Assembly: GCA_015222255.1 (NCBI GenBank)
Contig: JADFUX010000036.1
Location: 1-10,386, forward strand
Length of the DNA stretch: 10,386 bases
From: Chloroflexota bacterium
GTDB taxonomy: Bacteria > Chloroflexota > Dehalococcoidia > GIF9 > AB-539-J10
Reading direction: 5' to 3'
Of the stretch, positions 7,136-10,386 are shown one piece after another; the stretch's first letter is position 1; the number at the start of each line of letters is the position of its first letter. A program made the position numbers and the translations under genes. The notes beneath the pieces were generated by a model. That model searched no databases, was not told the origin of the DNA, and worked only from the letters and a program-made list of their open reading frames with translations.

Positions 7136-9730
7136 ATGTTTAAGTGGCTTGGCGGGTTAATTGATTCCAATGAGAAGGAGCTAAAACGCCTTCAGCCTTT
7201 AGTTGCCCGAATAAACTCACTTGAGCCTGACTTCGAGAAGCTGAGCGATGCTGAGCTTCGAGGAAAAACAGATGAGTTCAAGGCTCGATTAAGGGATGGT
7301 GAAAGCCTGGATAAGCTCTTGCCCGAAGCCTATGCTGCGGTTAGAGAAACAGCTAAGCGAACTATAGGGCAGAGGCATTTTGATGTCCAGTTAATGGGTG
7401 GGATCGTCCTTCACCAAGGCAAAATAGCCGAAATGAAAACTGGTGAAGGAAAGACCTTAGTAGCTACCCTACCCCTTTATCTCAATGCTCTCAACGAGGA
7501 AGGTTGCCATCTGGTTACAGTTAACGATTATTTGGCCAAGCGAGATTGCCATTGGATGGGACCCATCTATCATGCTTTGGGGGTAACCGTTTCCTGTATC
7601 AATGCCCAACAGAACCCAAATGAGCCCGCCCCTTCGTACATTTACGACCCGAGCTATGAATCGGAGGACCAGAAGTGGCGTTTCCTCAATCCCATCACGC
7701 GACGCCAGGCTTATGAAGCAGACGTGACCTATGGCACCAACAACGAGTTTGGTTTCGACTATCTTAGAGACAACATGGTTTTGGATCTATCTCAGTGCGT
7801 CCAGAGGTCACTTAATTACGCTATTGTTGATGAGGTTGATAATATCCTCATTGACGAGGCCCGCACTCCGCTGATCATAAGCGGTCCTGCCGAAGAAGCT
7901 ACACAGAAATACTATATCTTCGCTCATCTAGTTTCTCGCCTAAAGAAAGAGGAAGATTACACCATTGATGAGAGGACGCGTACTGCAAGCCTTACCGACA
8001 CTGGTATCACCAACATGGAGAGGATGCTCAAGAAGGAAGGTTTGCTCAAAGCACCTAGCCTCTATGACCCCTCTAATCATTTCCTTACTGAGTATCTGGA
8101 GAGTGCCCTTAAGGCCCATGCCTTGTTTAAGAGGGACAAAGACTACATAGTCAAGAATGATCAGGTGATTATTGTTGATGAATTCACTGGTAGGTTGATG
8201 TTTGGGCGAAGGTACTCCGAGGGGCTGCATCAGGCTATTGAAGCTAAGGAGAGAGTAAAAATCCAACGAGAAAGCGTTACCTTAGCCACCATCACTTTCC
8301 AAAATTACTTCCGCCTGTATCAGAAGCTGGCAGGCATGACTGGAACTGCCGCCACTGAAGCTGAGGAGCTTCACAAGATCTATGAACTGGAGGTAGTGGT
8401 CATACCAACCAATAAACCCTTGATTCGCACCGCATACCCTGACCAGATTTACAAAGATGAGAAAGCCAAGTTTGCCGCTGCGGTCAGGGAAATCGAGCAA
8501 TTGCATAACGGGGGCAGGCCTGTTCTTGTAGGCACAACTTCCATCGAGAAATCAGAGTATCTGAGCGACCTTCTGACGAGAAGGGGTATACCGCATCAGG
8601 TGTTGAATGCTAAGAATCATGAGCGCGAGGCGGGCATTATTGCCCAGGCTGGGCATCTGGGAGCGGTGACGGTGGCTACGCACATGGCTGGGCGCGGCGT
8701 GGATATCATTCTCGGTGGCAATCCTGAGGGGCGTAGCCATGAAGAATGGCTTGAGGAGCATGAGAAGGTAGTCGAGCCCGGTGGACTTCATATCATCGGC
8801 ACCGAGCATCATGAAGCTAGACGCATTGATAATCAGCTTCGGGGGAGGGCAGGAAGACAAGGAGACCCGGGCAGCTCTCGTTTTTATGCCTCTTTGGAGG
8901 ATGAGGCCCTTCGCCGTTTCGGCGGTGAGCGCGTCAAGGGCTTTATGCAGTGGGCCGGAATGGATGAGAACACCCCTATTGAGCATAGCTTGGTTACCAA
9001 GAGTATAGCCAATGCCCAGGTGGAGACGGAGGGCTATCACTTTGATATTCGTAAACATCTTGTTGAATATGACGATGTGATTAACAAGCACCGTGAGATG
9101 ATCTACGCCGAGAGGAAGAAAATCCTCAGTGGTGCCGACCTCAAGGCGAACATAATCTCTATGATTCAGGAGGAAATTCAAGCCGTGGTCAACGCTCACT
9201 TTGACCGTAGTCTGGGCGAGCTAGACTCATCCAGTTTGCTTCAAGATCTTTCCTCTGTCCTCCCACCACCACCGCAACATCTCATTGCGAGCGAAGCGAA
9301 GCAATCTCGCTCCAACGGCAAGGAAATCGCAGAAAGGCTCAGTGACTACGCCGCGGAGCTTTACAACCAACGGGAGCAGGAGATAGGTGCTGATATCATG
9401 CGCCTCGTGGAACGTCAAGTAATGCTTCGCGTTGTTGATAGATTATGGATGGAGCACCTTACTGCTATGGACCGGATGCGCCGCGGCATAGCACTGCGAG
9501 CTGTCGGGCAGCAGAATCCGCTGGTGGTTTACAAAAGGGAGGGCCATAGCCTTTTCGAAGCCCTTTTGTCTGGCATCCAATATGACGTTGTCCACAGCAT
9601 TTACCACATCAACGTGAGCAAGGAACCCCCGCGCAGAAAGCAAGCTGTAGTAGCAGGCAAGAGAGTTGGCCGCAACGCCCCTTGTCCTTGCGGCTCAGGT
9701 AAGAAATACAAACACTGCTGCGGGAAATAG
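7136..9730 (+). CDS. secA: Preprotein translocase ATPase SecA, with a palindromic repeat inserted in frame
   Basis: This is the motor ATPase that pushes unfolded preproteins through SecYEG; it is cytoplasmic and membrane-associated. It has 864 residues, within the family range. Order: Walker A TGEGKT (102-107) in the first nucleotide-binding fold; an insert typical of this lineage before [13 protein letters not shown]; Walker B DEVD (232-235) followed by [15 protein letters not shown]; the preprotein cross-linking domain; [22 protein letters not shown]; the second fold with [15 protein letters not shown] and [20 protein letters not shown]; then the helical scaffold and wing. The C-terminus has a complete zinc site, CxCx8CC, at C850, C852, C861 and C862, known in this family for SecB or phospholipid contact. 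Residues about 715-725 (LIASEAKQS) are encoded by a dispersed repeat and sit in the variable helical region after a run of four prolines. ATG 7136 lacks a close Shine-Dalgarno: AGGAG at 7115-7119 is 16 nt away, so coupling to prs is likely. Confidence 0.97.
9280..9308 (+). repeat. Palindromic repeat, copy 1, in frame inside secA
   Basis: This 29-bp copy has arms ATTGC and GCAAT around a core containing GCGAAGCGAAGC. It matches copy 2 in ruvX (opposite strand) at 26 of 29 positions without gaps. It is translated as SecA residues 716-724, LIASEAKQS. All three forward frames are open. The flanking sequence in secA is not obviously duplicated. Confidence 0.88.
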
Positions 9731-9760
9731 GAAGCCTTCCTTCGCTCACAATGACATTTC
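9731..9760 (-). repeat. Palindromic repeat, copy 3, spanning the secA-ruvX junction and the ruvX stop
   Basis: The copy fills the 15-bp gap between the convergent secA and ruvX ends and continues into ruvX. Its right part (CTTCGCTCACAATGACATTTC on the plus strand, 9740-9760) matches copy 2 at 19 of 21 positions, including the flank TTTC. The left arm is degraded by small changes. The ruvX TGA (9748-9746) stands where other copies have CGA. No intrinsic terminator is visible here for either gene. Confidence 0.75.
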
Positions 9761-10243
9761 CTTCACGCTATCCAGAAAACCCTGGAGGATAAAAGCTGCT
9801 GCCACAGCATCTACTGCAGCTTTAGCCGAAAGGCGCTGAGTCTCGGACCCCTTTCTTGCCCTAGAGCGCGGTCTATTTCTCCCACCACCAGCCTCCATCA
9901 TTAACCGCTCAGCAGCTTTGCTGGAGAGCCGTTCATCCCACATTTGTATATCAAGTCTAGCAAAATAAGATTGCTTCGCTTCGCCCGCAATGACATTTCG
10001 AAGTCTCTCAGTGAAAGCGGTTACCTTCTCAGCTTGTCCCCCAATGGATCCGTCCAGGGAATAAGGCAAACCAACCACAATGCGCTCCACCTGATACTGC
10101 TGAGCAAATCTCATAACATCGGCTATGGCTGCTTCCTCGTTCTTGTGGTCAATGACGCATAGAGGGAAGGCGATGAGACCTTCTGCATCGCTTATTGCCA
10201 CCCCAGTCCTTCTGTCCCCGATATCTAATCCCAAGCTACGCAT
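9746..10243 (-). CDS. ruvX: RuvX/YqgF family: putative pre-16S rRNA nuclease, with an in-frame repeat insertion
   Basis: This RNase H-fold protein (YqgF, RuvX, Holliday-junction-resolvase-like) is linked in other bacteria to 5' processing of 16S rRNA; the resolvase role is less certain. It acts in the cytoplasm. From ATG 10243 it has 165 residues, longer than the usual 135-150. Acidic catalytic residues are D7 in LGLDIGDRR, E104 in WDERLSS, and D145 in AAVDAVAAAFILQGFLD; the VVGLPYSLDGS strand-loop is at 56-66. Two expansions explain the length: residues 84-92 (VIAGEAKQS), encoded by repeat copy 2, and a basic stretch at about 120-141. The C-terminal MSL-stop comes from copy 3. I prefer ATG 10243 because the family normally starts MRxLGLD. 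A TTG at 10255, overlapping the alaS stop, would add four residues. Neither start has a clear Shine-Dalgarno, so coupling to alaS is likely. Confidence 0.92.
   Translation of the reverse strand: MRSLGLDIGDRRTGVAISDAEGLIAFPLCVIDHKNEEAAIADVMRFAQQYQVERIVVGLPYSLDGSIGGQAEKVTAFTERLRNVIAGEAKQSYFARLDIQMWDERLSSKAAERLMMEAGGGRNRPRSRARKGSETQRLSAKAAVDAVAAAFILQGFLDSVKEMSL
9967..9999 (-). repeat. Palindromic repeat, copy 2, in frame inside ruvX
   Basis: The 29-bp unit (9967-9995) plus four flanking bases is shared with copy 3. Read on the minus strand it has the ATTGC and GCAAT arms and the GCGAAGCGAAGC core. It is translated as RuvX residues 84-92, VIAGEAKQS, the same phase as in SecA. It falls between a helix (TAFTERLRN) and the strand leading to the WDER motif, a surface-loop position in this fold. 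Confidence 0.88.
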
Positions 10244-10251
10244 ATCAAGAA

Positions 10252-10386
10252 TCAAGTCTCACGAGACTGCTTCGCTGTGTTTCCAATGACAGATTCAACT
10301 AAGTTCAAAGCCTCACCAAGCTTAGATGAATCCTTGCCTCCTGCCTGAGCCATAGTTGCCTTGCCCCCACCACCACCACCAGTGAC
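10252..10386 (-). CDS. alaS: Alanyl-tRNA synthetase, C-terminal 44 residues only
   Basis: Only the last 44 codons and the TGA stop (10254-10252) are in the window; the gene continues past the right edge. The peptide starts VTGGGGGGKATMAQAGGKD and continues SSKLGEALNLVE. It matches the conserved glycine-rich end of the AlaRS C-Ala domain (family form GGGGGGxxxMAQAGGKDPSKL). The enzyme charges tRNA-Ala in the cytoplasm. The final residues SVIGNTAKQSRET are not the usual ending: they are encoded by repeat copy 4, read in the same phase as in SecA and RuvX. The stop is 8 bp before the ruvX ATG (or overlaps its alternative TTG), so alaS and ruvX form an operon, a pairing also seen in other bacteria. 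Confidence 0.88.
   Translation of the reverse strand, partial: VTGGGGGGKATMAQAGGKDSSKLGEALNLVESVIGNTAKQSRET
10263..10291 (-). repeat. Palindromic repeat, copy 4, forming the AlaRS C-terminus
   Basis: This degraded copy matches copy 2 at 21 of 29 positions without gaps. The outer part (ACTGCTTCGCT on the left, CAATGACA on the right, plus strand) is well kept and the centre has diverged. It is translated as VIGNTAKQS within AlaRS, in register with VIAGEAKQS of RuvX. Next to it, GTCTC and GAGAC (10256-10267) form a small 5-bp inverted repeat with a 2-nt gap. Confidence 0.72.

Follow-up and report, generated by a model that had tools for sequence, protein, structure and literature searches.

Repeat copies in and around secA and ruvX

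The window analysed here is an entire contig of 10,386 nt (G000:C109). It belongs to a draft genome (827,319 bases, 114 contigs) that is 62% complete. From the reading of its open reading frames, its genes are presumably dnaK, grpE, hrcA, glyA, a transporter gene, prs, secA and ruvX; Pfam was run on the SecA and RuvX products. The secA gene (7136..9730, plus strand) encodes 864 amino acids with matches to SecA_DEAD, P-loop_SecA, SecA_SW, SecA_PP_bind and SEC-C. The ruvX gene (RuvX/YqgF; 9746..10243, minus strand) encodes 165 amino acids from its ATG, with TTG at 10255 as a possible alternative start. Its product matched PF03652 (E 2.4e-34), with the 134-position profile covering residues 5-163 of the 169-aa form.

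Both genes harbour a copy of a repeat unit of about 30 nt, for which the consensus TGTCATTGCGAGCGAAGCGAAGCAATCTCA was derived from 148 non-genic copies; in these, conservation extends from the TG 5' of the core through a C and a weak A 3' of the core. The secA copy (9280..9309, plus strand) and the ruvX copy (9966..9995, minus strand) each match the consensus at 28/30 positions, the core being exact in the former and having one mismatch in the latter. The sister genome G001 has the ruvX copy at this position too. A preliminary description of this DNA had reported LIASEAKQS in SecA and VIAGEAKQS in RuvX, and both were confirmed, at SecA residues 716-724 (DNA 9281-9307) and at RuvX residues 84-92 counted from the ATG at 10243 (DNA 9968-9994, minus strand). 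The two copies are indeed nearly identical, but the measured identity was 27/29 and not 26/29 as stated. Both are read in one phase, as xIAxEAKQS (phase 1), and direct reading bore out the statement that none of the three forward phases contains a stop. In reverse, two phases are likewise open and the third has a TGA. Forward phase 0 gives a peptide of the SLRAKRSNL type (net charge +3), phase 1 the VIASEAKQS type (net charge 0, no cysteine) and phase 2 a reading with two cysteines; the most hydrophobic of the repeat's readings is reverse-2.

The 26-base core occurred twice on the contig at up to 3 mismatches, and in none of 200 shuffles. Two degenerate copies were also recognised, one at the 3' junction of secA and ruvX (9727..9756, minus strand; 21/30 to the consensus) and one just 5' of the ruvX start (10262..10291, minus strand; 23/30); the best score in 200 resampled windows was 21 in 1% of cases and never above 22. 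The ruvX frame enters the junction copy in phase 0 (M-S-L-stop) and takes its TGA stop codon from it. The counterpart of the upstream copy in G001 (C101:502-527) has 2 mismatches, lies directly before the ruvX match of that genome (536-1030), and is better preserved there than on the contig. Rfam gave no match on the contig at gathering thresholds.

The RuvX insertion and the reuse of sites among relatives

Judged by the alignments, the repeat in RuvX is an insertion. The stretch from the helix to the WDER motif has 20 residues here and 10 in the aligned relatives without the repeat, and the gap to homolog P0095 (57% identical, without the repeat) is exactly 10 residues, or 30 nt. Alignment to the solved 1vhx gave gaps of 8 and 2 residues at the same stretch. 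Both comparisons agree with the earlier claim that the insert lengthens the fold between D7 and E104, and the opposite case raised with it, homologs that lack the repeat and have an equally long loop, was not encountered, the loop being 10 residues versus 20. The AlphaFold model of RuvX (mean pLDDT 79) matches RuvX/YqgF structures and has residues 71-88 in one helix, 89-93 in coil and 98-103 in a strand. In this predicted structure one half of the insert (84-92) extends the helix and the other half is coil, so that only part of it lies in a loop; the preliminary description had expected an exposed loop for residues 83-95. A second length difference among RuvX homologs, some 15 additional residues in the C-terminal part ahead of the final helix (9818-9889), is not obviously the repeat.

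The SecA copy is situated within SecA_SW (residues 614-825), the wing and scaffold domain. At this site SecA has 17 residues here and 14 in relatives, about 3 more as counted by eye, which suggests that the copy largely replaced a variable linker. A different, shorter stretch occupies the site in the SecA of G012, G004 and G016.

The alignment took in 30 RuvX loci, out of 50 genomes that gave a match. The repeat makes up the loop DNA in phase 1 in G000, G001 and G030, and in the SLRAKRSNL-type phase 0 in G007, G009, G015, G031, G033 and G035, in both groups above all 300 shuffles; partial or gapped matches above the shuffles were obtained for G006, G012, G018 and G027. Among the best 120 of 1,560 RuvX protein homologs, classed by loop length and letters and not by DNA, 86 had a 16-residue loop of the phase-0 type, 31 had the phase-1 type (8 of these longer), one had no insert and 2 were not parsed. 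P0026, with a phase-0 loop, is 84% identical to P0095, and its model (pLDDT 71), which is weaker than that of RuvX, retained the order of helix, coil and strand. A tree of 30 SecA sequences (685 columns), several backbone supports of which are 7-53, placed genus g5 inside g9 (supports 97, 87, 80 and 98), and these two genera differ in RuvX phase. One insertion or several may underlie the phase-1 copies in RuvX of g1, g5 and g6.

Similar reuse was observed in other genes. One site in CarA holds phases 0 and 1, one in DUF1015 phases 0 and 2, and one in HypD forward 0 and reverse 0. As the RuvX loop is in phase 0 in other genera, and the CarA, DUF1015 and HypD sites are reused in other readings, the phase of the repeat, as read from these sequences, is not fixed at a given site. 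In G018 (L421) the adjacent genes carA and pyrC have copies in phases 0 and 1, respectively. In PheT the repeat was seen at three different sites among relatives (L059, L243, L380 and their clusters). A phase-0 copy in L189 (Dehalococcoidia) is, by eye, at the phosphoglucose isomerase site of L308 and L391. A longer second repeat (CHSEG...KRPKNLAQGKL type) interrupts the copy in RuvX of L038 (G027) and L040 (G006) and in SecA of L211 (G019) and L214 (G018). It lengthens the RuvX loop by about 50 residues, the interrupted copies of G006 and G027 being in phase 1.

Reading phase and orientation of genic copies

The survey comprised 363 distinct copies in 327 loci of the host genome and its relatives, at up to 2 mismatches (3 in the host genome); 9 of the 363 had too little flank. 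Genic copies were called by the codon usage of the flanks, excluding the repeat itself, or by ORF length, and were merged by gene, site and phase; the union of the two rules was used because several phase-0 copies escaped the codon model when it was applied alone. A strict rule kept 53 of 75 raw events, those with Pfam matches (E <= 0.001, a few under Pfam's own cut-off) across the copy or on both its sides. They were assigned by hand from Pfam coordinates, the position of the second Pfam stretch being deduced for L058, L309, L402 and L495. The 22 events dropped had Pfam support missing or on one side only, or the copy before the domain: L048, L226, L323, L309 (MiaA-like), L371, L419 and L463 in forward 0; L374, L053, L387 at residue 69, L422, L238, L256, L364, L382 and L446 in forward 1; L460 in forward 2; and L066, L427, L326, L329 and L415 in reverse 0. 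Of these, L226/L066, L053 and L364 may well be real. The ruvX copies at G015:C126 and G031:C11:178338 lie outside the survey loci, and RuvX phase 0 enters the tally a single time, as L298.

The 53 strict events, which share ancestry and genomes, were distributed as 16:28:4 over forward phases 0, 1 and 2, with 4 and 1 in the reverse readings. Equal use of the forward phases, which the preliminary description had named as the outcome against its own reading, was rejected (48 forward events, p = 1.2e-4). Phase 1, the xIAxEAKQS reading, was above one third (28/48, p = 6e-4) and phase 2 was depleted (4/48, p = 8.5e-5), but the lead of phase 1 over phase 0 (28:16) is unsettled (p = 0.10). An excess of the xIAxEAKQS phase, named earlier as a sign of selection or mechanism, was found relative to one third but is incomplete, with 16 events in phase 0. 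Similar distributions were obtained from all 75 raw events (forward 23:37:5, p = 6.9e-6), from one count per family per phase (15:25:4, p = 5.4e-4) and from an earlier cut of 47 events (forward 13:26:3, reverse 4:1). The host genome has 13 copies, of which 6 were genic, all forward, with phase 1 in SecA, RuvX, a dihydroorotase-like gene and HypF, and phase 2 in MnmA and DUF1015.

A contig scan for the repeat gave at least 117 stretches among the matches listed. An exact copy was spanned by 34 ORFs of at least 150 aa, and 20 of these were run through Pfam: 12 were without a family, in L108, L160, L164 and L173 the copy lay outside the domain and was left out of the count, and in 4 from other phyla it lay inside the domain, always in phase 1. 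These four encode LeuRS, UvrD, GcvT and PPDK, and come from Flavobacteriia, Curtissbacteria, Omnitrophota and Shapirobacteria.

The agreement between SecA and RuvX could be due to chance, with phases equally frequent and the pair matching one time in three. Two forward copies are expected to share a phase in 33% of cases under uniform phases and in about 46% under the observed distribution, so the match of SecA and RuvX is by itself unremarkable and the pair alone proves nothing. However, chance of this kind requires equal forward phases, which were rejected in both the strict and the raw counts, and we regard it as an unlikely account.

The orientation of the genic copies was also biased. Forward events made up 48 of the 53 (p = 1.5e-6 against the 3:2 ratio of open readings), that is 91%, compared to 56% expected among open readings from a null based on flank preference. 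The 248 non-genic copies in the orientation set, 143 of which had no scored coding flank, also favoured the forward orientation with respect to adjacent coding sequence (81:50, p = 0.009, counting flanks), on the 3' side of genes (51:34) as well as the 5' side (30:16). Against the baseline of 71% based on these copies the genic share was still higher (p = 7.7e-4). As the non-genic copies lean forward too, the orientation bias is only partly a protein effect. Five copies of the full set were in the stop-bearing reverse phase with one coding frame on both sides, which indicates that reverse insertions do occur. Copies in this phase in L319, L322 and L362 mark possible interrupted genes. One relative has three tandem copies with a 49-nt spacing (G051:C93:6685-6808).

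An insertion target in a fixed codon register might set the phase instead. The recurrence of sites (RuvX, CarA, PheT, HypD), the weakly C-rich upstream flanks and the forward lean of non-genic copies are compatible with such a target. However, the null built from the flanks of 241 non-genic copies puts the expected forward phases in the order 0, 2, 1, with the observed favourite last; there is little conservation outside the 30-mer, and single sites occur with more than one phase or orientation. A fixed register is accordingly improbable.

The phase-1 excess might also reflect a useful peptide, for example a flexible linker, with positive selection for phase 1, and the retention of the RuvX insert in several genera, with 31 homologs among the best 120 having it, would agree with this. 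However, codon-level constraint was not found beyond the absence of stops: synonymous and non-synonymous changes were 12:27 in phase-1 genic copies and 75:148, with 8 stops in addition, in non-genic copies. No signal of continuing selection on the peptide was thus detected in phase-1 codon changes, in a test restricted by the 2-mismatch limit. The 86 homologs with a phase-0-type loop and the one without an insert, as well as the interruption of the copy by the longer repeat in some relatives, also argue against a useful peptide, which we consider very unlikely.

The wider phase bias is real and points to the effect of the insert on proteins, not to a fixed insertion register. We judge it probable that a mobile REP-type palindrome together with a loose protein-level filter explains the phase pattern, SecA and RuvX being two separate insertions with no fixed register. 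The repeat would be a mobile, TGTC-tagged palindrome of some 30 bp, its mobility being suggested by the scatter of copies. Some copies land in genes. With five of its six readings open and exactly 30 nt added in the RuvX case, the repeat can make a protein about 10 residues longer with no frameshift, as seen for RuvX against the homolog without it. The filter may then keep insertions in tolerant loops and linkers, favouring VIASEAKQS, tolerating the basic SLRAKRSNL and mostly removing phase-2 and reverse readings, and the SecA and RuvX insertions would both have passed it. As the phase is visible in translation only, the pattern of phases is most simply attributed to such a filter. Of the three options originally offered for the shared phase (chance, a fixed preference, or selection for a harmless peptide), a fixed preference is not supported, in view of the RuvX loop, the carA/pyrC pair and the phase-2 copies of the host; the counts (28/48 in phase 1, 4 in phase 2, 5/53 reverse) fit a filter on proteins.

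Comparison with known palindromic repeats

The repeat resembles short REP-type palindromes, in particular the CGTC-tagged REPs and the Rickettsia palindromic elements RPE-4, RPE-6 and RPE-7. According to the available part of the literature on CGTC REPs, TGTC and CCTC are variants of the tag, the stem is 8-9 bp and starts with AT, the loop is 4-5 nt, and the unpaired tail is mostly CCA (PMC3733652). The list of five phyla given in that part does not include Chloroflexi (PMC3733652). As far as those descriptions go, the two share an AT-first stem, an imperfect short stem-loop, an unpaired tail, many dispersed copies and the lack of an evident linked transposase, and some copies of each are genic, including in DNA-repair and tRNA-enzyme genes. 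In 148 non-genic copies the TGTC tag was conserved at 0.80, 0.99, 1.00 and 0.97, and the CTCA tail at 0.99, 0.88, 0.74 and 0.49. The tail thus differs from CCA, but CCA is described for most copies and not for all, so the repeat may still belong to this group. The stem, compared by description, also differs, being 5+2 bp with unpaired purines between. The 30-mer folds into 5 bp and 2 bp with a 3-nt loop, at a stability not above that of shuffles (z 0.43). Among 94 non-genic copies with two changes, the inner pairs were kept by double changes at 12-18 (A/T, in 6) and 13-17 (T/A, in 4), and these paired changes at two inner stem positions support the hairpin.

The GTAG REPs with RAYT transposases are likewise short dispersed palindromes (PMC3733652, as far as available). 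This system was considered and rejected, as the tag here is TGTC and Y1_Tnp is absent from 12 of 14 genomes with nine or more copies. The Y1 transposase (PF01797) was found in 3 of the 20 genomes searched and in 2 of those 14, the 14 being drafts that are 59-99% complete.

Rickettsia RPE-4, RPE-6 and RPE-7 share an ATGAC motif, the R. japonica inserts of Table 1 are 68-192 bp, and PheT is an RPE-7 host gene, according to the available part of the source (PMC3767692). The motif is GTCAT on the other strand of the repeat described here. On the same partial account, both kinds of element insert in frame in conserved genes (here 53 Pfam-backed events), and they have host genes in common, namely phenylalanyl-tRNA synthetase beta and an aminomethyltransferase. 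Rickettsia orthologs can differ in the element group found at a site or close to it, and sites are reused here also. The present repeat differs in that a single 30-bp unit suffices and in that it belongs to another phylum. Neither a match to the peptide strings of the repeat nor a phase tally for such inserts was found in the literature searched; an earlier report of a preferred frame in the original RPE papers is possible.

Protein-invading palindromes, best known from Rickettsia, thereby gain an example of only 30 bp in bacteria that are probably Dehalococcoidia, a name with which one RuvX homolog is labelled. The survey gives numbers for the reading phases and orientations of such inserts, together with site reuse in which the reading has changed, and in the RuvX loop one fold is found with two different readings and with none. 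The phase spectrum offers a ready measure of the short peptides that proteins tolerate. It is a tentative idea that the repeat acts as a natural linker-scanning experiment, a translatable 30-bp unit entering the tolerant loops of essential proteins again and again while the spectrum of phase and orientation records peptide tolerance, and that the repeat has perhaps itself been shaped to be harmless when translated.
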